Assembly: GCF_000219725.1 (NCBI RefSeq)
Contig: NC_015732.1
Coordinates: forward strand, 1,798,001-1,862,000
Length of the DNA: 64,000 bases
Direction: 5' to 3'
Source: Gracilinema caldarium DSM 7334
GTDB lineage: Bacteria > Spirochaetota > Spirochaetia > Treponematales > Breznakiellaceae
Position 1 is the first letter of the stretch; each line of letters begins with the position of its first letter. The notes beneath the pieces are model-generated. The model saw nothing but the letters and a program-made list of their open reading frames with translations, ran no database searches and had not been told where the DNA came from. Of this stretch, positions 34,433-45,263 are shown in pieces. The position numbers were made by a program, and so were the translations under genes.

Positions 34433-35449
34433 TTATTTAGTTTCAGTTGAAGGGGTAAAGCCAGATTCAGTAGCCTTCTTCTGAGCTTCCAAATATCTCA
34501 GCACCTGCTGCTGGCCAAAGCGGGACATTTCAGCATTTTTCCGTGCAGTTTCACGGTCCTGAATAATGTTCCACAGACCTTCATCATCAATATCCCTGTC
34601 AGTTTCAATAACAGCCTTATCGTAGATGACTTTAACATCTTTAAAATATGCTACAAAGTCACCGCCTTCAGCAGCTGCATCACGCTGGATAAGAAACCCT
34701 CCAAATTTTACGAAGGGAGTTGATTTTGGGTAGAGCGGATAGAGCCGGAGTTCCCGGTTTCGTACATTCTCGACATACTGAGGATTGTCCCAGCGTAGCT
34801 CTCCCCAACCATCGAATTTCAGGTAACCCATAAATACCACATTCTCGTTTCCATCGGCATCAATGAGTACAGCAGAAAGTCCATGGGGGAAATTAAGCCC
34901 ATATACATTAACTGCAAGGGACTTAATAACACCTACATTCTTTACCACACCGTAACCATTTTCAAAGCGGGTAAATTTGCTTGCCTTGTCCTCTGCAGTG
35001 GGGGCCTGAATGGTACCATCATCTGCAACCTTGGTCATTGCTTCGAAGGCAGGAATTTCAAAGGGCGGCTGAATCCGTGCCCAGGAATTAAAGGGTTCTA
35101 CAGGGAAATGAACCCGTACGCCAAGAACCTTTCCAAACTGCTTGGAAGGTGCTTCCTGTGTATAGCTCTTGGCCTGGTTGGTCACAGTCCTGGAAGATGA
35201 TGCGAGAACCACATCCCAGTTAGCCAAGGCGAGGGAGGTCTTCATCACCTTTTTTTGTTCGGTGGTGAAGCTGCCGCCGGCCACGTTGGAGAAATCCATC
35301 ATGGTCGCACGGTTCTGAGTGGGTACGTTGTCCTGGTTGGGAATAATGTCGGCCGCAAGTTTGGTGAAGTCGATAAGCACCGCTTCTTCTGCAAACAACG
35401 ATCCCGCCGCGAACAACGCGATGGCGACAAGAATGAACATCCGTTTCAT
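34433..35449 (-). CDS. flaA: Flagellar filament outer layer (sheath) protein FlaA
   Basis: FlaA coats the FlaB core of spirochete periplasmic flagella. The 338-residue precursor starts with MKRMFILVAIALFAAGSLFAEEA, a Sec signal with expected cleavage after LFA at about residue 20. The mature protein has the FlaA pattern: SWARIQPPFEIPAFE, VKSIAVNVYGLNFPHGL-like strand, GELRWDNPQYV, and LYPLYPKSTPFVKFGGFLIQRD. The C-terminal 40 residues are helical and charged. It has its own promoter and a strong AAAGGAG, and a terminator follows, so it is separately and highly expressed though downstream of the GerMN gene. Confidence 0.95.
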   Translation of the reverse strand: MKRMFILVAIALFAAGSLFAEEAVLIDFTKLAADIIPNQDNVPTQNRATMMDFSNVAGGSFTTEQKKVMKTSLALANWDVVLASSSRTVTNQAKSYTQEAPSKQFGKVLGVRVHFPVEPFNSWARIQPPFEIPAFEAMTKVADDGTIQAPTAEDKASKFTRFENGYGVVKNVGVIKSLAVNVYGLNFPHGLSAVLIDADGNENVVFMGYLKFDGWGELRWDNPQYVENVRNRELRLYPLYPKSTPFVKFGGFLIQRDAAAEGGDFVAYFKDVKVIYDKAVIETDRDIDDEGLWNIIQDRETARKNAEMSRFGQQQVLRYLEAQKKATESGFTPSTETK

Positions 35450-35493: not shown

Positions 35494-35521
35494 AGTATAC
35501 GAGATGGTTTTTATTTGTCAA
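35494..35521 (-). promoter_or_regulatory. Sigma-70 type promoter for flaA
   Basis: On the minus strand a perfect TTGACA (35516-35521) and TATACT (35494-35499) are 16 bases apart. It overlaps the last codons of the GerMN gene. The leader is about 40 bases and ends in AAAGGAG before ATG 35449. Confidence 0.7.
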
Positions 35522-36038
35522 CGCTTTTCTTTATTTTTCGCTCAGTATTTGTATGATATACCTCATTTCCTGCAATAAAAAGGGTTATTTCTTTTATAGA
35601 CTGGAAGTTTTTCCGTATTATTTGGGTAAATAAACGTGCCCTTTGTTCAAATGACACAGAATTTTGAAGAGGAAGGGCAGCTGAGTCCGATAGATTGATA
35701 TAAGCCTTCTCATTTCTGATCATAACCGTCGTAAGAACTGCATCCACTGGGAAAAGGGGCATTAAATCTACCGAACTTGGTCCAAGCAGGTATTCTTCTA
35801 TAAAATATCGCAGTTGATCTTCTTTTGTTTTGCCAGAAACGAGATATCGGGTTTCAATATGAAGGGTTTTCGTTTTTTGAGAAAAAAAACTATAAATATA
35901 TCTTTTTTTCGGCGTCAGTATGACATCTAAGGAAGCAATTACCAGCAGTACTAGAAGAAAGGTTAACCTTCTATTTATGGAAATTTGAAAAAAACCTGTA
36001 ATACCCTGTAAAACTGGGGCAGAATTATCATTTTTCAT
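35511..36038 (-). CDS. GerMN domain protein, membrane-anchored
   Basis: The 175-residue protein has an N-terminal membrane anchor (LTFLLVLLVIASLDVIL, about 25-41). A GerMN-type domain (about 55-160) follows: KTKEDQLRYFIEEYLLGPSSVDLMPLFPVDAVLTTVMIRNEKAYINLSDSAA, ending with LFIAGNEVYH. GerMN modules bind peptidoglycan partners in sporulation and cell-wall complexes; spirochetes do not sporulate, so a cell-wall role with the upstream amidase is likely. Its start overlaps the amidase stop by 4 bases. Confidence 0.85.
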   Translation of the reverse strand: MKNDNSAPVLQGITGFFQISINRRLTFLLVLLVIASLDVILTPKKRYIYSFFSQKTKTLHIETRYLVSGKTKEDQLRYFIEEYLLGPSSVDLMPLFPVDAVLTTVMIRNEKAYINLSDSAALPLQNSVSFEQRARLFTQIIRKNFQSIKEITLFIAGNEVYHTNTERKIKKSVDK

Positions 36039-37096
36039 GGTGCAGTCGTAAAACCTCCAGTTTTTTCAAAATTATTCACAAAATCAACTATACCCTTATA
36101 CAACGCGTTAGAAAACTTCTGCAAGTAGGCCGAATCGTTCATCAATATGGCATCTTGATAATTCGTAATAAAACCAAGTTCAACCAGGACAGAGGGCATT
36201 TTAGCATTCCTTACTACAAACCACTCTTCAGCCTTAATACCCCTGGAGGGTAGTTTATCGCCGAGTGATACATCTAACTGGCTTAAAATTGATTGAGCGA
36301 GCAGTATACTCTCTGTGGTAAATTCTTCTTCCAGCATGGCATTAATAATTGGCAGAACCTCTGTCGATTCCTGAAATTTTTTAGAATCCACCAGGGTACG
36401 ACGGTATTCTGGACTGAGATACCATACTTCATAGCCCCGAGCAGTTTTGTTAAATGATGCATTTGTATGGATGGATATAAAGAGAATTGCTTCGTGTTCC
36501 CCAAGGGGTATGGCATTGGCGATAGAAACCCGATCTTCAAGGGTAGGATAGGTATCTCCAGTTCGGGTCATAAGAATTCGCTTTTCGGGAAATTGTGTTT
36601 TTAAAAGCTCATAGACCTGTTTCCCTACAGAGAGGGTTATATTTTTTTCCTGAAGGGTAACTTTTTTCTTTTCTATCAGGTGTTCAGCCACCGCACCACT
36701 ATCCTTTCCACCATGCCCCGGATCGATAACGATGGCAGCAATACGGTACAAGGCCTGGCTTTTCGATAGTAACGAAAGCAGAGCTTTCTCAAGACCTTCG
36801 ATGGTTTCTGAAGGGAAAACAAGCCTTGAGTCGGTATATCGGGGACTGGGTAGATAGAGTACATATCGATTATCAATGATAAAAGGGGAGCTTTGAGTAT
36901 TATAACCTATTCCGAAGGAAATATGGTGTAAGTCTGTAATCAGTAAACCGGTCTGCATAAGGGGATCCCAGCTCAGTTTTGCCGAAAGCCGGGATAGGGC
37001 TTGAGAAAGTTCTATATCATCAGCAAAACAGAATGAGCTGATGAAGAGCAGGATTAAAAAAACAATATACTTTTTGAAGGAAAGTCTTCTGTCCAT
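36035..37096 (-). CDS. N-acetylmuramoyl-L-alanine amidase (Amidase_3)
   Basis: The zinc hydrolase cleaves stem peptides from muramic acid in the periplasm. A signal peptide (YIVFLILLFISSFCFADD) opens the 353-residue precursor. The Amidase_3 domain occupies about 125-350 and shows the zinc ligands: His in VIDPGHGGKDSGA, Glu in LQEKNITLSVGK, His in FISIHTNASF and the catalytic Glu in SVLVELGFITN. Residues 30-115 are an unrecognised domain. The start overlaps the ATP-grasp stop as TAATG. It is in the middle of the seven-gene unit. Confidence 0.92.
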   Translation of the reverse strand: MDRRLSFKKYIVFLILLFISSFCFADDIELSQALSRLSAKLSWDPLMQTGLLITDLHHISFGIGYNTQSSPFIIDNRYVLYLPSPRYTDSRLVFPSETIEGLEKALLSLLSKSQALYRIAAIVIDPGHGGKDSGAVAEHLIEKKKVTLQEKNITLSVGKQVYELLKTQFPEKRILMTRTGDTYPTLEDRVSIANAIPLGEHEAILFISIHTNASFNKTARGYEVWYLSPEYRRTLVDSKKFQESTEVLPIINAMLEEEFTTESILLAQSILSQLDVSLGDKLPSRGIKAEEWFVVRNAKMPSVLVELGFITNYQDAILMNDSAYLQKFSNALYKGIVDFVNNFEKTGGFTTAP

Positions 37097-38703
37097 TATC
37101 GGTTCCGTTCTACCGCCTGGGACATCAGTTCATCAATATAATATAAGATTCCCTGGTAAGATCCCCGAACAAAGGCCAACCAGAACCGGCGTCCTAATAA
37201 GGCTGTATCCGGAGTTGGATGTGTTAAAATAGGCAACGTAAGACCAGTTATGGTTCTCAGTATCTGCAGGCAGTCCGTTGGCGTGTTGCCATGATAATCC
37301 GTAAGGGATGAATCCAAAAATCCTGAGAAGGGAAGCAATGCTATGGTACCTGATAGTACAAGGTTATATCGTGGTTCCGGGTCAGGAATTTGGAGAAGCT
37401 CTTGCCGTTGCTGTGGGGTAATTTGAAACGCTGATGGGGGAAATTGCCGTTCTTCGAGGTAAAGGTCTGTATATAAAAAGGCGTCAGTTTCTTGATTTGG
37501 TGCGGCAAGGCGTATCCAAACCCGTCTGGCGGCAGTTTCAGCGGCGTCTATGGCCCCTTTTCTATCGGGGAGTACCGCAATTACATTTCCGCACTTGGTG
37601 ACATTGTTTTCAGGGAATTGGACTCTGCTTCCTTTATTGATTCGGGGGAAAATGTCCTTTACACCAGGCAGTTTACTGGCTTCATCCAGGCCATAGATCT
37701 CCGCTACCTGTCCTGGAATAGAAATAAAGGCCCGTTCGGCACTGGTCCAGTTCCGCAGGGGTTCAAGATTCATTGGCTTTTCCCCGAGGGCTACCGAAAT
37801 AGCGGCCTTTGTAGGCTCTACACCTGAAGCATAGGGATAGGTCCAACCGGACATATAGCCCCCTGAGAGCCGAGCTGCAATTTCACCGATCATGGGTCCC
37901 TGGGGAGTAAGCTTAATATCACCTTTGGCAGCTCCATTGGTAATACCCAGGGCACGAACCCCGTCCTTAAAAACTGAGAGAAGCCACTCTGCTTGCTCTT
38001 GAGGGAGATTCGTCGGCATGGTATGTCCCATTTCTATGAAATAGGGAGGAAAATAAATGTGCCGATCTGCAAGACCACAGATGGTAATTTCTCCCTGATA
38101 GACAATGGCATCTACAGAAAATTCTGGACCCTCCATGTACTCTTCTACAATTGCCCGGCCGGAGCGAGAAAAAGCCAGGGCATCCTGCAGTGCAATAAGT
38201 AGCTCTTCTTCAGAATCGACCCTGCGGCAGCCCCGGGCCCCCATGTTGTCCACCGGTTTTACCACTACCGGCATAGAAAAAGGCAGTTTGAGAAGGTTAA
38301 TATCCTCCATATCAGATTGATGAACAATATAAAACTTCGGTGAAGGAATGCCGGCTTCTTTAAAACGGCGGCGCATCCGTTCCTTGTCGGAAGCATCGAG
38401 GGCGGTTTTGTAGGGAATACCTGGTAACCCTAATTTTTCTGCAACCCAGGCAACGGAGGCAGAAAAGTCGGTCCCAGCGGTCATAACCGCCGAGAGGCCG
38501 CCATCACGCTGTAATGAACGGGCAAAGGCTTCTAAAGCATCCTTATCTTTGAGGTCGATTTTTTCAAAACGGTCTGCCAATCCTGTACAAACCGCATGGG
38601 GATCTGCATCGACGACTACGGCTTCAAGACCCATTTCTTTCGCAAAGGAGATAGCGGGGCGTTGCATAAGACCTGCGCCTAATATCAATATACGTCGTTT
38701 CAT
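37096..38703 (-). CDS. ATP-grasp ligase of the CarB-like type
   Basis: The start is placed at ATG 38703 (MKRRILILGAGLMQRP). The 535-residue protein starts with a Rossmann-like pre-ATP-grasp domain, then an ATP-grasp domain (about 95-300: MPVVVKPVDNMGARGCRRVDSEEEL, VEEYMEGPEFSVDAIVYQGEI, with GDIKLTPQGPMIGEIAARLSGGYMSG near 270 giving the metal ligands). A C-terminal region of about 190 residues is unassigned. Enzymes of this type join a carboxylate to an amine; the substrates are unknown. The gene follows the PseG-like fusion by 65 bases. Confidence 0.82.
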   Translation of the reverse strand: MKRRILILGAGLMQRPAISFAKEMGLEAVVVDADPHAVCTGLADRFEKIDLKDKDALEAFARSLQRDGGLSAVMTAGTDFSASVAWVAEKLGLPGIPYKTALDASDKERMRRRFKEAGIPSPKFYIVHQSDMEDINLLKLPFSMPVVVKPVDNMGARGCRRVDSEEELLIALQDALAFSRSGRAIVEEYMEGPEFSVDAIVYQGEITICGLADRHIYFPPYFIEMGHTMPTNLPQEQAEWLLSVFKDGVRALGITNGAAKGDIKLTPQGPMIGEIAARLSGGYMSGWTYPYASGVEPTKAAISVALGEKPMNLEPLRNWTSAERAFISIPGQVAEIYGLDEASKLPGVKDIFPRINKGSRVQFPENNVTKCGNVIAVLPDRKGAIDAAETAARRVWIRLAAPNQETDAFLYTDLYLEERQFPPSAFQITPQQRQELLQIPDPEPRYNLVLSGTIALLPFSGFLDSSLTDYHGNTPTDCLQILRTITGLTLPILTHPTPDTALLGRRFWLAFVRGSYQGILYYIDELMSQAVERNR

Positions 38704-38769
38704 CAATCTAACCCTTTTGGGAGGGGCCACTCAAAACGAACTCTGTTGCTAGAGTCTTAGCGGAGCCCC

Positions 38770-40704
38770 CTATTCTTTTATTGCATAGGCTTCGAAGGTA
38801 TCGCCTAGTGAAAATAGCTGGCTTACCTTGAGCAGTACCCTATATATGACTGTTTTTTTAGACTTTGCAAAGGCCCCTACAAAGGGGAATCGTTCCGGGT
38901 GATGGCCTGTGCTCACCGTTTTCACAAGCCGGAATCCATACCGTGCCAAAATGGAACCACAGGTTCTGGGACTGAGAATCGTCCAGTGATCTGGCGGGCT
39001 CTGTTCCAGGAAGGATCGAAGTCTTGCTCTTCCCGAGATGCCAGAACCGGAAGGAGTTGAAAAGGCCAGGAGGCCACCCTTTTTTAACATTTCTGAAGCA
39101 GCTTTGAGGGCCTTGCCAAGATCGGGGAAGTGTTCAATCACATACCAGAGACTTACCACATCGAGTTGTTCGCCATCGGTTAAGCTGGTGAGATCCGTTT
39201 CAGGGAAAAGCCCCTGTAAAACTGGTACCCCTATATGGTCTTTTGCATACCGAACTGCATCATGGGAAGGATCTAGGCCCATAACAGACCAGCCACGTTC
39301 CTTTGCCGCCGCAAGAAAGGGCCCATAGGCACAGCCAATATCAAGGAGCCGAACATAGTGCGGGACATCAATCTTAAGGGCTTTTTCACCATGGATTTTA
39401 TACCTCCGACCATGCAAAAGGATCTGCTCAATTTGGTTAAGCCGGGACTGGGCCATTTGAATCAGATTCGGGAAATCTTCGATATAGGTTTTACCATACT
39501 GCTTTTTATAATCTTCAAGAAAATAAGCTCCGTCATAGGTTATAGGAGGATGGTTGGGGCGAACCATGTAGGTAATGCCGCAGCGGCCGCAGCGGACATA
39601 GGTGCGGTCAGGGAAGCGGGCGAGTATACGTCCGCCCCTGCGACTCCGGTCTTGACAGAGGGGACAGCGGCCATAGGTTGGGAAGGTCCAGCTTTGCAGG
39701 GTTGCGGCAAAGCTGTTTGTTGTCCGAAACAAACAAAAACGATGGTAAAGTTCCCTGCTTGCTTGAATAATGGAATGTTGCACCAATTGACGTGTAAGCT
39801 GTCGCCCTACCCCTAAAGCGGCCTTTCTCCCATAGCCAAAACTATAGAATTGTGTTGAAAGACCTAAAATCTCATGGTATGCCGTAGGGGCCACCAGTGC
39901 AACCGAAGTTTGTGCAGCTAGAGCTTCAAATGCAGTTAAACCATAATGGGTTATCACAAGGTCATAGTCTGCAAGGTATTCCATCAAATTATCGGGAGCT
40001 TTTATTAGATGTATCCCCTGTAGGGCAAGTTCCTGCCGTATCTGGGCTGTGATATTTTTATTCATAGGACCTACCACCAGGCTTATATCATAACCGATAC
40101 CATGCGGAATGAGCCCCCGTATAACAGACATACTGAGATTCTGTGCATCCTCAGCGCCAAAGGTGATAAGAACCTTTTTTATAGACTCAGGAAATTGCTC
40201 CCGGCGTTTCTGGGGGAGCTGAAGAAAGTCAGGATTTACCAGATTTGGCTTATCGGCTTGTCCTAAACTTGTACAGAGCATTTTATACACAGAAAATTCT
40301 CGAAAAATCGGCATGAAGAGCATAAGTAGCTTGACAGCTATAGTAAGCCCTTTAGGCCCCGGAAGTATGTCTACAAGGTAATCGAAGGAGGATCTGCAGG
40401 GGCCTCCCTCATCAATTCCAACAACCGGAGCTTTTTGGGACCATCTGTGTACCACTTGAGGCGCGGTACGGAAGCCATCAATCACAATAAAACGCCAGGC
40501 GGAAATTGTTTGAGCTTGCATCTCATTCATGACTGGAATATCAGTAGATTGATGTTCCGATATATTTGTAAGCAGATAAGCCTCTCCTCCTAAGGCGCTG
40601 AGGGCCTGCACAAGCCGCTGGCACCGGGCAATATGCCCTCCACCTTTACCAGGATCCTGATTCGGAATCACGAGAATCGGCAAAATGGATGAAGGGATAC
40701 CCAT
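38770..40704 (-). CDS. PseG-like glycosyl hydrolase/transferase domain fused to a methyltransferase
   Basis: The start is ATG 40704 behind GGGAGGG and overlapping the spsF stop by one base (TGATG). The 644-residue protein has three parts. Residues 1-330 resemble PseG, the nucleotide-sugar hydrolase with a GT-B fold (PNQDPGKGGGHIARCQRLVQAL, VGIDEGGPCRSSFDYLVD, VLITFGAEDAQNLS, DLVITHYGLTAFEALA). Residues 360-400 are a four-Cys zinc ribbon (CPLCQD... VRCGRCGITYMV). Residues 430-640 are a class I methyltransferase (LLDIGCAYGPFLAAAKERGW, LWYVIEHFPDLGKALK). A nucleotide-sugar processing and methylating step is inferred. Confidence 0.8.
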   Translation of the reverse strand: MGIPSSILPILVIPNQDPGKGGGHIARCQRLVQALSALGGEAYLLTNISEHQSTDIPVMNEMQAQTISAWRFIVIDGFRTAPQVVHRWSQKAPVVGIDEGGPCRSSFDYLVDILPGPKGLTIAVKLLMLFMPIFREFSVYKMLCTSLGQADKPNLVNPDFLQLPQKRREQFPESIKKVLITFGAEDAQNLSMSVIRGLIPHGIGYDISLVVGPMNKNITAQIRQELALQGIHLIKAPDNLMEYLADYDLVITHYGLTAFEALAAQTSVALVAPTAYHEILGLSTQFYSFGYGRKAALGVGRQLTRQLVQHSIIQASRELYHRFCLFRTTNSFAATLQSWTFPTYGRCPLCQDRSRRGGRILARFPDRTYVRCGRCGITYMVRPNHPPITYDGAYFLEDYKKQYGKTYIEDFPNLIQMAQSRLNQIEQILLHGRRYKIHGEKALKIDVPHYVRLLDIGCAYGPFLAAAKERGWSVMGLDPSHDAVRYAKDHIGVPVLQGLFPETDLTSLTDGEQLDVVSLWYVIEHFPDLGKALKAASEMLKKGGLLAFSTPSGSGISGRARLRSFLEQSPPDHWTILSPRTCGSILARYGFRLVKTVSTGHHPERFPFVGAFAKSKKTVIYRVLLKVSQLFSLGDTFEAYAIKE

Positions 40705-41438
40705 CAATGTCCCTCCCGTTGATGCCAATGTTTTAAAATCCAGGCTCCCTGGTAACGAAGGGGAATTGTTTTCGTTTCAGAAGCTCTTGCAGATAAAGAA
40801 TCGTTACAACCCGCTTCAGCTTGTGTGAGCGTCTCAAAGAGCCACAGGGCCTGCTCATAATCATCCCGGGTGTCTATCGTGAGACGGACCTCAGGGGCCC
40901 TCCAGTGTTGGGGTGCCAAGGGGCGATGCAGATAAAAACGACCCGGATTGTTATATAAATAGGGACATACATGTTCCCGATCATAGGGGTCCTTCGTTTC
41001 CCGGTCAGCCTGACGTAATGCTTCAGCACGGATGATTTCCACGCCGCTTCCATAGGGCATACTAGTGAGGGTACCATAGTCGGCTTCCAGGTTCAGGGTT
41101 TCCTGTGCACTTGACCAGGCGGCATCGGCAAAGACAAAGGGATTATCTGCGGTTGCCCGTATACAATAATCAATCTTGAATGCATCGAGGGCAAGGATAA
41201 AACGGCCCAGAACATCCTCTTTTGGTCCAGCGATGATTGAAAATCCAGCCTGTTCTGTGAGAGGCTTAAAGATATCGTATGAGTCTTCAGGGCAAGCTAA
41301 AATATAATATGCCGCTGGTATGCATCGTAGAGCCTCTAGGACACGAACAAGCAAAGGTTCTCCTCCTAAAGGTAAAAGAGCTTTCTGTGGAAGCCTACTT
41401 GAATCGAGTCGGGCTTGAACAATGACACCAAGATTCAT
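40704..41438 (-). CDS. spsF: SpsF-like cytidylyltransferase
   Basis: The 244-residue protein has the GT-A nucleotidyltransferase fold of SpsF/NeuA-type enzymes that activate acidic sugars with CTP. Signature N-terminus GVIVQARLDSSRLPQKALLPLGGEPLLVRVLE (the nucleotide-binding loop), GPKEDVLGRFILAL, and CIRATADNPFV (with the metal Asp). Ends overlap the neighbours: ATGA with the glycosyltransferase-like gene and TGATG with the fusion gene. The sugar substrate cannot be told from sequence. Confidence 0.88.
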   Translation of the reverse strand: MNLGVIVQARLDSSRLPQKALLPLGGEPLLVRVLEALRCIPAAYYILACPEDSYDIFKPLTEQAGFSIIAGPKEDVLGRFILALDAFKIDYCIRATADNPFVFADAAWSSAQETLNLEADYGTLTSMPYGSGVEIIRAEALRQADRETKDPYDREHVCPYLYNNPGRFYLHRPLAPQHWRAPEVRLTIDTRDDYEQALWLFETLTQAEAGCNDSLSARASETKTIPLRYQGAWILKHWHQREGH

Positions 41439-42388
41439 TCAGTTTCCTCCCAGAGTTCAGCAAGCTGACGAGCATCCATTTGAAAACGATAGGTAAATAA
41501 TTCTACCCACTCGCGGACGCTACGGAAATTACGCCAAGCAATTCTAAAACCTTCGCCAGACTTAAGTAGATAGGGAATCAAACGTCTCCAAGGAAGAAGA
41601 GCCGTATCACCACGGAATACTGGTGCTATATTTTTCAAATAGAATCGGCGATAATCTGGATGCATGGAAGTATCCTGAGGTACAGGCTCACCATCATAAA
41701 CGACCTTAACCAATTGACTTGTTTTTATCTTTTCTCCCCAAAGATAGGCTCGAAAACCAAAATCCATTAACTGCCAGTAAGGACTTCTTATATTTACATC
41801 ATACCCTGTTAAGTTGATGAACTTCTCTGTATGGTAGACTCCTACTCCGTCGAAGGGATAGAGTGACAGTGATCCTTCCTTAACCGGAACAAAGGGTATG
41901 GTCCGAATTGTTCCGCGGTACAGAGCCGGGATAATAAGGGTCGGTAATGGTTCGAAACGGGTGTTTTGAACTACCGGGACTGTACAGAGCTGATCAGATT
42001 GTAATATCCGTTCAGCAATTCGCTCCGCTCCACCGCTTTGGGTAAAACGGACATCGTTCCACAATACAAAGAAAAGGGGGGTCCGTACTTCCATGGCAGC
42101 AATATTAATCTGTTCCCCAAACGACAGGTTTTCTTTCAGAATAAGAAATTGTGCAAAGGGATAACGGAGGGATAATTCCTCTATATCATAGGACTTCTTT
42201 CCCGTCTCTACCGAAAGTACATAATCAAATCCAGCCTTTTCCAGGTCTTGAAAAATACTTCGCCTGAGATAGCGGCCGCCCCTACTCAGGAGTACCGCTG
42301 ACATTCCTGTGTTCGCCCCCCGTTCGCCCTTGCCGATCACAGTATAAGCAGGCAAGTTCTGATTAAAAGTTGAAGGTATAGTACTCAT
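41435..42388 (-). CDS. Glycosyltransferase-like protein (GT-A fold), uncharacterised
   Basis: The 317-residue product has a GT2-like layout: a first strand with VLLSRGGRYLRRSIFQDLEKAGFDYVLSVETG, LILKENLSFGEQINIAAME, and LFFVLWNDVRFTQSGG, with WND at the position where GT-A enzymes carry the DxD motif, then YPFDGVGVYHTEKFINLTGYDV. The residue pattern is weak, so glycosyl transfer is inferred rather than shown. The gene overlaps the spiro-SPASM gene by 26 bases and spsF by 4. Confidence 0.65.
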   Translation of the reverse strand: MSTIPSTFNQNLPAYTVIGKGERGANTGMSAVLLSRGGRYLRRSIFQDLEKAGFDYVLSVETGKKSYDIEELSLRYPFAQFLILKENLSFGEQINIAAMEVRTPLFFVLWNDVRFTQSGGAERIAERILQSDQLCTVPVVQNTRFEPLPTLIIPALYRGTIRTIPFVPVKEGSLSLYPFDGVGVYHTEKFINLTGYDVNIRSPYWQLMDFGFRAYLWGEKIKTSQLVKVVYDGEPVPQDTSMHPDYRRFYLKNIAPVFRGDTALLPWRRLIPYLLKSGEGFRIAWRNFRSVREWVELFTYRFQMDARQLAELWEETE

Positions 42389-43967
42389 CGCAATCCTTGC
42401 AAATTCCCGAATATTCCTTATGGCTCTGTTCTAAATACAATTCCTGAGCACTCTCCCAAATTGAGGCTAAACTATCATTAAAAACATTCCCCAGGATCCG
42501 GGTGCGGCTTACATCTTCCTTGCAAAGCGGTACCGTTCCATCGAGAAGCACTGCCATATCCCGCTGCAGGTGCCAACAGGGCTGACGAATAAGAGGTGAA
42601 ATATCCCCTGCCCGTTTTTGCGGCAGAAAACCTGCAAAATAATCATATTTTTGGATAATCACCTCTGCGCCTAAAGCTTTCCAGTACCGGTAGAATTGCT
42701 CCATATCATCCTCAGATCCCTTAACCCGGATTGCCTGAACATAAACTGCGCCAGGAAAATGCTGCAGCAGGATTTCTGCAAAGTGATATGCTTCCTCAAA
42801 GCCTGCACCACGTATTTCCTGATACCGTTCACCGTTTCGGGCATCGAGGGAAACAATCCAGCTCAAAGGTGGTAGTTTATTAGGACCTCGTAGGGGCTGG
42901 GGATCATATTTAACCACCGCTGCGAGCTCTTCGATGTGGGAAGAAATCCATCCTATGCCACTTGTTTCAACAATGAGAGCGAGCTCCGGTCTTCGGAGGA
43001 CCGAACCCATGAGATCCTTGATATCTGGATGTAGTGCAGCTTCACCCCAGAGGCTTATATCGATCACTGCATCCCCAGAAAATTCAACAATCCGGTCTAG
43101 CAGGCTTTCAAAAGTGGATTTGGACATAAAATCCTCAGAAGGAGAAGCGGGCAGACGGGGATTGCCGAACTGCGGATAGGGACAGAAACTGCATAGCTGG
43201 GGACAGGGACGGGATACCTGAATCTGGTAAAAGGCCGGCAGGGTTCTCAGAAGTTCCGGATGACCTTCCAGAATTTCAGGGGCCAATTCTGCCCTGTCAA
43301 GTCCTGCATTAATAAGCCGCTGAAGCAAGAGGTAGTTCCGTTTAGAGTCTGCCGCCAAGGTAAGCCTGTAGGGCCGAAGATCTACCGGAGCAATTTCAGT
43401 CTCGATATCAAAGGAATTGATATCCTTCTGAAGCACCTGAAAAAGGGCATCCCGAGAAATGGCAGTCCTTCCGAAGGCTGTCCCATCCGAATTTTTTTGT
43501 TGCTCCTGAGAAGCTATGTGGGCCGTACTATTTTTATAAATTGATAAAAGGATAGCTGCTGTACTGGGGGCTAGTATTTCCGGTGCAAAGCCATAGGGCC
43601 AGCCGTCAGCAAAGGTATATTCGGCGGCCCAGCGCAGATGCCGTTCCACCATGGCACTGGTTAGAGATGGATCGAGCAAAGGACAATCGGCCCAGGCAAA
43701 ATAGAGGAAGTCCTGTTCACGGGAGATTTCCACCAGGGTTTCAAGAAGGTCCCTCAGGGTCCATCGGCTTTTACGGATAACCTTGCATTGAGGGGGGATG
43801 AACTCATCATCAAAAGTATCCTGAAGCAGAAGATATACTTCAGACACATTGGGAAAGGAGCGAGCCCGTTCTATTTCAAAAGACAGGGCTGAACAGCCTT
43901 GAATAAGGGGCTTTACTGCATAGGGGGACAAGGACTGTCCGCCAAATAAGACAACAGGAGCTTTCAT
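42363..43967 (-). CDS. Spiro-SPASM protein: nucleotidyltransferase-like domain fused to radical SAM/SPASM
   Basis: The start is placed at ATG 43967 (MKAPVVLFGGQSLSPYA); a TTG at 44003 is an alternative. The 534-residue protein has an N-terminal GT-A/nucleotidyltransferase-like domain (about 1-220; FAWADCPLLDPSLT holds the metal Asp). It is followed by a radical SAM core with C-x3-C-x2-C in RPCPQLCSFCPYPQFG near 250, and a C-terminal SPASM-type segment with cysteines in RQPCWHLQRDM, VPLCKEDV and ICKDCDEYY. This architecture matches the spirochete-specific spiro-SPASM family, whose substrate is unknown. It heads the seven-gene unit divergent from xseA. Confidence 0.85.
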   Translation of the reverse strand: MKAPVVLFGGQSLSPYAVKPLIQGCSALSFEIERARSFPNVSEVYLLLQDTFDDEFIPPQCKVIRKSRWTLRDLLETLVEISREQDFLYFAWADCPLLDPSLTSAMVERHLRWAAEYTFADGWPYGFAPEILAPSTAAILLSIYKNSTAHIASQEQQKNSDGTAFGRTAISRDALFQVLQKDINSFDIETEIAPVDLRPYRLTLAADSKRNYLLLQRLINAGLDRAELAPEILEGHPELLRTLPAFYQIQVSRPCPQLCSFCPYPQFGNPRLPASPSEDFMSKSTFESLLDRIVEFSGDAVIDISLWGEAALHPDIKDLMGSVLRRPELALIVETSGIGWISSHIEELAAVVKYDPQPLRGPNKLPPLSWIVSLDARNGERYQEIRGAGFEEAYHFAEILLQHFPGAVYVQAIRVKGSEDDMEQFYRYWKALGAEVIIQKYDYFAGFLPQKRAGDISPLIRQPCWHLQRDMAVLLDGTVPLCKEDVSRTRILGNVFNDSLASIWESAQELYLEQSHKEYSGICKDCDEYYTFNF

Positions 43968-44030: not shown

Positions 44031-45263
44031 ATGGAATTGGAAGGCCCCTTAAGTGTTTCCCAGCTCACGGAGCTTATTAAAACCTGTCTGGAAAGAACCT
44101 TTTCAGAAGTGACAGTAGAGGGTGAAATCTCCAACTACCGGCCCTCGAGTACGGGACACCTCTATTTTACACTGAAGGACGCTGGGGCAGCCCTGCAGGC
44201 GGTGATGTTCAAAAACAGACTAAAATCCCTCGACTTTACCCCCCAGGATGGGCAACGGGTCAAGGCTCGGGGAAGCATTTCGGTCTATCCACAGCGGGGG
44301 ACCTACCAGCTTGTATGCGAATACCTTGAACAAGCAGGAACCGGAGATATACTAGCGATGCTTGAAGAGCGGAAGCGCCGGCTCGCCGCTGAGGGGCTTT
44401 TTAATGCAGAACGAAAAAAGGCTATTCCCAACTTTCCCGAAACTGTCGGAGTTGTCAGTTCACCCACAGGGGCTGCAGTACAGGATATCCTAAATATTTT
44501 AAAGCGGCGGGCCCGGGGTATCCGGGTAATCCTGCTGCCGACCCCGGTACAGGGTTCTGATGCGGCCTCGATTATTGCCCGCAGAATCGAACAGGCAAAC
44601 CAGTGGAAACTGGCAGATGTACTTATTGTGGGTAGAGGCGGTGGGTCCCTGGAAGACCTTCTCCCCTTTTCAGAGGAAGTCGTGGTTCGGGCCATAGCCG
44701 ACTCAGACATACCGATTATCAGTGCCGTGGGGCATGAGATTGATTGGGCCCTCTCAGATTTTGCAGCGGACCTGAGGGCCCCTACCCCTTCAGCGGCGGC
44801 TGAACTGGTGAGTGCCAACCGGCAGGAAACGCTGGAACAGGTTCGAAACTACCGGAAAATGTTTTCCGACTCCATTCAGGGACGTCTGGACCGGGCGCGG
44901 CTGCTCATCAAACCCTTTGCCCCTGAAAACTTGGAACTCCGTTTCAGGGCTATACTCCAACCCCGGCTGGTTCGCTTTGATGATGCCAAGGAATCCCTTC
45001 TCATGAGAATGAAGGAACGGCTTTTCAATGTACGGAGAAAATTTGAACTGGCGGTGAATACCCTGGAAGGAGCCAGTCCTTTAGCCATTCTTGAACGGGG
45101 TTATTCGGTAGTGCAGGATGCTGCAACGGGTCGGATCATTCGCAGTTCAAAGGATACAGAACCAGGTAAGTTCCTAAAGATTCGCCCCATGGAGGGGATT
45201 ATAACCGCCAAAACAGAAACAATATTGATTCAAGAGGAATCCGATGGCAACAAAAAACTTTGA
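44031..45263 (+). CDS. xseA: Exodeoxyribonuclease VII large subunit
   Basis: The 410-residue catalytic subunit degrades single-stranded DNA together with XseB. It has an N-terminal OB fold (VTVEGEISNYRPSSTGHLYFTLKD), the nuclease core with GVVSSPTGAAVQDIL, LPTPVQGSDAASIIARRI, VGRGGGSLEDLLPFSEEVVVRAI and SAVGHEIDWALSDFAADLRAPTPSAAAEL (catalytic His/Asp region), and a long C-terminal coiled coil. It heads xseA-xseB-mutL and overlaps xseB by 20 bases. Confidence 0.96.
   Translation: MELEGPLSVSQLTELIKTCLERTFSEVTVEGEISNYRPSSTGHLYFTLKDAGAALQAVMFKNRLKSLDFTPQDGQRVKARGSISVYPQRGTYQLVCEYLEQAGTGDILAMLEERKRRLAAEGLFNAERKKAIPNFPETVGVVSSPTGAAVQDILNILKRRARGIRVILLPTPVQGSDAASIIARRIEQANQWKLADVLIVGRGGGSLEDLLPFSEEVVVRAIADSDIPIISAVGHEIDWALSDFAADLRAPTPSAAAELVSANRQETLEQVRNYRKMFSDSIQGRLDRARLLIKPFAPENLELRFRAILQPRLVRFDDAKESLLMRMKERLFNVRRKFELAVNTLEGASPLAILERGYSVVQDAATGRIIRSSKDTEPGKFLKIRPMEGIITAKTETILIQEESDGNKKL

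Follow-up and report, generated by a model that had tools for sequence, protein, structure and literature searches.

Two interleaved modules beside flaA in Gracilinema caldarium: a probable flagellin nonulosonic-acid pathway and a spiro-SPASM family with repeated loss of its radical-SAM site

The window analysed here, a 64,000-nucleotide stretch (positions 1798001-1862000) of the single-contig, 3,239,340-base genome of Gracilinema caldarium DSM 7334, contains a seven-gene unit next to the flagellar gene flaA. The unit is two interleaved modules: spiro-SPASM, an SpsF-like cytidylyltransferase, a PseG-like/methyltransferase fusion (PseG-MT) and an ATP-grasp ligase (module 1), and a GT-A-fold protein, an amidase and a GerMN protein (module 2). 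Module 1 quite probably makes a nonulosonic acid and activates it with cytidine monophosphate (CMP) for attachment to serine or threonine of the core flagellin FlaB. New here is the repeated loss of the radical S-adenosylmethionine (SAM) site in the spiro-SPASM family, in which the SPASM cysteines are invariant.

The same 296 genomes of the phylum were searched four times, for spiro-SPASM, NeuB, the ATP-grasp ligase and a 51-base FlaB pattern spanning two serines (IQVEVS..RIxS), which were found in 227 (above cut-off), 235, 237 and 236 genomes, respectively; the reversed FlaB pattern, as a control, gave zero matches. In families f6, f9 and f12 (31, 3 and 12 genomes, respectively) spiro-SPASM above cut-off, the ATP-grasp ligase and the FlaB pattern were found in no genome, and NeuB only in two f12 genomes. 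Tested genomes of f9 and f12 gave no flagellin, and those of f6, a Borrelia-like family that shares Borrelia's flaA-cheA neighbourhood, have it. Maf transferases, counted in a smaller sample, occur in 15 of 15 module-1 genomes and in none of three genomes without module 1. A preliminary description of this DNA had proposed a flagellum-related pathway that activates an acidic sugar and uses it as a decoration; co-distribution with the FlaB serines and Maf supports that proposal.

Three Borrelia-like loci (L290:7603-11179, L291:177-3775 and L292:10414-14008) contain GT-A, amidase, GerMN, flaA and cheA in a row, and are the window's locus minus exactly spiro-SPASM, SpsF, PseG-MT and ATP-grasp. 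A flagellin-less genome, L293, has GT-A beside the amidase gene and no sugar genes. The preliminary description had treated all seven genes as one pathway, which had to be given up since module 2 persists without the sugar genes in the Borrelia-like genomes, and GT-A and amidase do so in the flagellin-less one; GT-A, amidase and GerMN probably form a module of their own at this locus, serving the envelope or the flagellar housing. A single cell-wall or envelope pathway, with the sugar delivered to peptidoglycan or a periplasmic polymer and with amidase and GerMN included, would fit the translational coupling of the ATP-grasp gene to amidase and GerMN, as well as the GT-A-amidase adjacency that survives even in L293. 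It seems unlikely, however, because FlaB glycosites or flagellin are missing from exactly the genomes that lack the sugar genes, with GT-A, amidase and GerMN left in place, and because the sugar core is unlinked from the amidase group in the genomes presumed to be T. pallidum (G056, 1,139,633 bp) and T. denticola (G165, 2,843,201 bp, with near relative G019). Nor is the co-loss in Borrelia a matter of genome reduction alone, because the presumed T. pallidum, at 1.14 Mb, keeps one NeuB, one PseC-like aminotransferase (adjoining a CapD-type dehydratase), four Maf, the ATP-grasp ligase and the core.

Both FlaB serines are kept in all 33 FlaB proteins from module-1 genomes (VE(V/I)S...R(I/V)(A/S)S). 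Borrelia-like FlaB (L208-L210) reads IEIEQL...RIADQ in three of three, where Glu replaces the first serine and Asp the second. The two serine sites belong to the motifs VEVSQL and DRIAS, reported to be glycosylated in T. denticola FlaB and to be substituted in B. burgdorferi (PMC7431986). In T. denticola, FlaB carries a glycan of 450.2 Da on which filament assembly depends (PMC9481697), as does motility, and the title of a 1998 paper by Wyss (a reference in PMC13144727) places glycosylation on flagellins, not sheath proteins. Of the targets offered by the preliminary description (surface, peptidoglycan or flagellar sheath), the flagellar one thus stands, with core FlaB likelier than FlaA or peptidoglycan in view of the kept serines and the Wyss title. 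The glycan, which we take to be a monoacetylated pseudaminic-acid-type nonulosonate bearing a 2-methoxy-4,5,6-trihydroxyhexanoyl amide (computed mass 450.185), would need one amide ligase and one O-methyltransferase, roles that the ATP-grasp and methyltransferase proteins could fill. In the papers found, which do not include the primary 2017 paper, no gene of the operon is assigned to the 450.2-Da glycan.

Were the nonulosonic acid of module 1 destined instead for lipopolysaccharide or some other surface polymer, the flagellar correlation would be indirect. Leptospira expresses nonulosonic acids (PMC3438082), and NeuB is present in several copies in many of these genomes. We nevertheless regard this as very unlikely: in the window's genome a legionaminic-type cluster exists apart from the unit, complete with NeuC-like and CMP-transferase genes of its own, the presumed T. 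pallidum keeps module 1 as its sole such pathway, and module 1 co-distributes with Maf and the FlaB serines. T. pallidum is without lipopolysaccharide.

For the preferred flagellin pathway, gene order, co-distribution, motif states and folds are observed, whereas each of the enzymatic steps, like the acyl assignment, is our inference. A UDP-4-amino-4,6-dideoxy sugar would come from a CapD-type dehydratase and a PseC/SpsC-type aminotransferase encoded outside the unit; the ATP-grasp ligase would amidate the sugar's 4-amine with a small carboxylic acid, in place of the acetyltransferase PseH; the methyltransferase domain would O-methylate the acyl group; the PseG-like domain would strip UDP; a stand-alone NeuB/SpsE-type synthase would join the sugar and phosphoenolpyruvate; SpsF would form the CMP sugar; and Maf-type transferases would attach it to FlaB. 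In its own genome G. caldarium has a dehydratase-aminotransferase pair (L199:7612-10363), followed by xanthine-dehydrogenase-like genes as in the presumed T. pallidum, and a NeuB partner (L037:9425-10663). PseH was not found above cut-off in any of 18 genomes, with no match whatever in the presumed T. pallidum or the window's genome, and the ATP-grasp ligase would be the natural candidate for the 4-amino acylation. Brachyspira-like and Leptospira-like genomes carry the ligase as a fusion with an FMN-dependent domain of the alpha-hydroxy-acid dehydrogenase type (in G143, FMN_dh E=2.5e-72), and a hydroxy- or keto-acid is therefore the predicted partner. Such ATP-grasp/FMN_dh fusions were also seen at L194:8920-11073, where the domain is recognised only partly, and at L196:7287-9518. 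The PseG GxGHxxR motif, with its catalytic His, is kept in 55 of 56 loci, and the QARxxSxRLxxK motif of SpsF is found in both the window protein and the T. pallidum-like fusion.

Two other NeuB contexts in the G. caldarium genome were set aside as partners. A legionaminic-acid-type cluster (L036:5696-14137, about 551.7-560.1 kb) is self-contained, lies inside a polysaccharide region and holds dehydratase, aminotransferase, acyltransferase, NeuB, NeuC-like hydrolase, PtmE-like and CMP-transferase genes; it was rejected for having its own NeuC-like and CMP-transferase genes. The third NeuB match (667 aa), whose neighbours are branched-chain and aromatic amino-acid genes, resembles a 3-deoxy-D-arabino-heptulosonate 7-phosphate (DAHP) synthase type. 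Near the orphan NeuB is a phosphonate-type region (L037:2064-6305, about 1505.1-1509.3 kb), named from sequence only, with PEP mutase-like, phosphonopyruvate decarboxylase-like and NTP-transferase/aminotransferase fusion genes.

The spiro-SPASM protein of the window is a full-length member of the NCBIfam subfamily TIGR04321, whose name carries no function (match against a cut-off of 250 bits, model positions 2-510 of 510). It joins a degenerate SpsF-like domain (residues about 1-235) to a radical-SAM/SPASM domain (about 240-534). In the AlphaFold2 model (predicted local distance difference test score, pLDDT, 92), residues 1-235 resemble a cytidylyltransferase of Leptospira (6oew, Z 20.7); for residues 240-534 the matches are SuiB (Z 23.1) and BtrN (Z 21.4). 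The N domain aligns with the operon's SpsF (HHalign probability 97%, E=1.3e-10), but the alignment begins past the CTP-binding motif, and this motif is missing from the protein. The window protein retains an intact CX3CX2C motif (CPQLCSFC at 255-262; C255, C259, C262) and the SPASM cysteines C464, C482, C523 and C526.

Among 147 spiro-SPASM sequences, CX3CX2C is present in 79, three cysteines with other spacing in 14, and the cluster motif is absent in 54, including proteins of the presumed T. pallidum, T. denticola and Brachyspira, whereas none of the 147 lacks any of the four SPASM cysteines. The cluster state changed at least 11 times on a tree built by a quick method with the motif columns excluded; the count gives no direction, but regain of the cluster is much less probable than its loss. 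In the Gly-Glu motif every sequence has Glu or Asp as the acidic residue, and this Gly-Glu/Asp, like the later Glu of the SAM pocket, is largely retained. Because the PseG GxGHxxR motif and the ATP-grasp loop are intact in cluster-less loci wherever readable, these loci are not decaying pathways. The expanded three-cysteine spacing (e.g. CX8CX2C), an intermediate state, was seen at L066-L071, L073, L077, L080, L083, L085, L087, L096 and L285, mostly in Treponema/Spirochaetaceae metagenome-assembled genomes (MAGs).

Radical chemistry, which the preliminary description had counted among the steps of the pathway, was dropped as a shared step after the motif table, since a motif gone in 54 of 147 proteins cannot be the basis of a conserved function. 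Judged from these sequences, the conserved parts are the auxiliary cluster and the degenerate nucleotidyltransferase domain, with radical chemistry optional, and the conserved role is probably non-radical, as a partner or scaffold of SpsF or as carrier of one auxiliary [4Fe-4S] cluster. The G. caldarium protein could still perform radical chemistry as an optional extra. A stronger form, that spiro-SPASM is a phylum-wide pseudo-enzyme in which the auxiliary [4Fe-4S] cluster is essential and the protein serves as a redox- or iron-sensing or structural SpsF partner without radical chemistry, is put forward tentatively, as an idea that may well prove wrong. Alternatively, spiro-SPASM may be an ordinary catalytic radical SAM enzyme, such as a BtrN-like dehydrogenase or a 3-deoxy-acyl deoxygenase, with the cluster-less lineages making a simpler glycan. 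This is a serious possibility, although we lean away from it. The 79 proteins with the canonical motif (the window's among them), the 14 with three cysteines, the match to BtrN as best sugar-acting fold and the universally acidic Gly-Glu motif agree with it; the presumed T. denticola, however, lacks the cluster where a complex glycan is known, and every cluster-less protein keeps its SPASM cysteines, whereas complete decay would be expected of an enzyme whose function is radical only. A full-text literature search on spiro-SPASM, and also on TDE0958, found no paper.

The GT-A-fold protein (gene 2) gave no family above cut-off in the searches of the window proteins. Its AlphaFold2 model (pLDDT 89.6) is closest to polypeptide N-acetylgalactosamine (GalNAc) transferases (Z 20.9, root-mean-square deviation 3.5 over 261 residues), with the next GT-A group at Z 15.9, and its DxD position reads WND or WSD (LWND at the strand end in the window, from sequence). 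Its occurrence in Borrelia-like and flagellin-less genomes removed it from the sugar pathway and placed it in the envelope or flagellar-housing module. Within that module it might work alongside the amidase as a glycosyltransferase, or be a degenerate glycosyltransferase. Were it the flagellin glycosyltransferase, as a bacterial relative of the GalNAc-transferases, the margin of that fold match and its staying with the sugar core in the presumed T. pallidum and T. denticola would be accounted for; its presence in genomes without module 1, its absence from most of the distant module-1 genomes tested, the apparently degenerate DxD motif and Maf as the likelier transferase make this improbable.

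Gene order was compared in 67 loci from named genomes and 20 regions of whole genomes. The order spiroSPASM, GT-A, SpsF, PseG-MT, ATP-grasp, amidase, GerMN, flaA is found again across Treponema, further Spirochaetaceae and deeper Spirochaetia, an arrangement conserved far beyond chance, and flaA comes after the unit in most Spirochaetia loci. At the level of open reading frames (ORFs), 36 other loci have spiroSPASM, GT-A, SpsF, the methyltransferase domain of gene 4, ATP-grasp, amidase and flaA in order on one strand; with a strict gene caller the complete set is present in 20 of the 56 loci having at least 8 kb downstream. The preliminary description had suggested comparing other treponemes, in which the set proved to be linked; it had also named unlinked genes in other spirochetes as grounds for refutation, and these were found in part, as the presumed T. 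pallidum and T. denticola have the sugar core, the ATP-grasp gene and amidase-GerMN-flaA at separate sites. In these two genomes, as in rumen treponemes, SpsF, PseG and methyltransferase are a single fused protein. T. denticola flaA is co-transcribed with four ORFs upstream (PMC9481697), which in G165 read as a glyoxalase-like gene, pgk, amidase and GerMN. Distant phylum members have the order SurA-like gene, spiroSPASM, SpsF, SpsG; spiroSPASM-SpsF-SpsG is thus the most widely shared cluster. In five Treponema/Spirochaetaceae MAGs (L047, L044, L061, L064 and L075) spiro-SPASM and GT-A are kept and PseG-MT and ATP-grasp, or even SpsF, are absent; in L047 the SpsF region directly adjoins amidase, GerMN and flaA.

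In the window itself, positions 35511-43967 are filled by seven minus-strand ORFs (Table 1), and the unit and its gene families are as the preliminary description named them. The junctions from spiro-SPASM through GerMN are -26, -4, -1, +66, -1 and -4 nt (negative values are overlaps), in agreement with the overlaps and short gaps described earlier; the single real gap, of 66 nt, precedes the ATP-grasp gene, which starts with ATG at 38703, and GerMN is spaced +61 nt from flaA. The separate flaA promoter was also confirmed: it overlaps the end of the GerMN gene and is the best of 15 matches in the region, a number equal to that in shuffles, so that only match quality counts. The divergent xseA is often retained upstream of the unit in relatives.

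Table 1. Features of the locus (positions in the window)
Feature	Coordinates	Strand	Evidence and assignment
xseA (exonuclease VII large subunit), divergent neighbour outside unit	44031..45263	+	Named from sequence
Spiro-SPASM protein, 534 aa	42363..43967	-	TIGR04321, 665.6 bits; module 1
GT-A-fold protein (gene 2), 317 aa	41435..42388	-	AlphaFold2 fold and distribution; module 2
SpsF-like cytidylyltransferase (gene 3), motif QARLDSSRLPQK intact	40704..41438	-	CTP_transf_3 E=8.9e-32; module 1
PseG/SpsG-like UDP-sugar hydrolase domain fused to class I methyltransferase (gene 4), 644 aa from ATG	38770..40704	-	Methyltransf_23 E=3.3e-22; module 1
ATP-grasp carboxylate-amine ligase with LAL_C2, 535 aa	37096..38703	-	Family search; module 1
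Amidase_3 N-acetylmuramoyl-L-alanine amidase, signal-like N terminus	36035..37096	-	PF01520 E=6.2e-47; module 2
GerMN/Germane protein, N-terminal membrane segment	35511..36038	-	PF10646 E=2.3e-05; module 2
flaA promoter, near-consensus sigma-70-type	35494..35521	-	TTGACA-16-TATACT, 11/12
flaA, flagellar filament outer-layer (sheath) protein	34433..35449	-	PF04620 E=1.8e-73; conserved order

Among the closest known systems is the B. subtilis Sps pathway (SpsC, SpsD, SpsE, SpsF, SpsG and SpsM), which makes CMP-legionaminic acid for the spore crust (PMC7439481). Both have an SpsF-SpsG (PseG-like) core, an SpsE-type NeuB, an SpsC-type aminotransferase, a dehydratase and UDP-linked precursors, whereas the spirochete set has a fused methyltransferase, an ATP-grasp ligase at the step of the acetyltransferase SpsD, and spiro-SPASM; its genes are partly scattered and its target is probably flagellin. 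The Campylobacter/Helicobacter pathway (PseB, C, H, G, I, F and Maf) shares the hydrolase, synthase, cytidylyltransferase and Maf, and likewise places an acidic sugar on flagellin Ser/Thr. Unlike it, the spirochetes have spiro-SPASM, periplasmic flagella, no detected PseH and a divergent PseG that is fused to a methyltransferase and sometimes to SpsF. The T. denticola FlaB glycan of 450.2 Da (Kurniyati 2017, cited in PMC9481697) belongs to the class of the predicted product and comes from this phylum, and the FlaB sites compared here are those named in PMC7431986. BtrN (2-deoxy-scyllo-inosamine dehydrogenase), SuiB and other SPASM/twitch enzymes share with spiro-SPASM the fold of residues 240-534 and four auxiliary-cluster cysteines; unlike them, it has an SpsF-like N-terminal domain and has repeatedly lost the radical-SAM cluster within the family.

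Several points weigh against a flagellin nonulosonic-acid pathway. The associations in the co-distribution reflect few independent losses, because the joint losses stem from about three lineages, and the assignments of the compared genomes to T. pallidum, T. denticola, Borrelia, Brachyspira and Leptospira are themselves inferred. Gene 4 scores 49.7 bits against the PseG model TIGR03590, under the cut-off of 153.55, and the ATP-grasp gene is unlinked in the presumed T. pallidum and T. denticola. It is possible that the Glu and Asp of Borrelia FlaB are charge mimics of the acidic sugar, or that they are the ordinary flagellin state. The mass and role of the glycan come from the literature, and the structure used here is presumed. 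The dehydratase is of the long CapD/PglF type, which is associated with the legionaminic-acid route, so that the stereochemistry may be pseudaminic or legionaminic. B. subtilis makes legionaminic acid via SpsM (PMC7439481).

The operon provides a concrete candidate gene set for the T. denticola-type acidic flagellin glycan, and one that is also found in the presumed T. pallidum. Borrelia-like genomes are a natural knock-out, having lost exactly module 1 and the flagellin serines. The repeated loss of the radical cluster, with the auxiliary cluster kept everywhere, challenges annotation of spiro-SPASM by superfamily only. If the pseudo-enzyme reading is true, it would link Fe-S status and flagellar assembly in spirochetes, the syphilis agent included.

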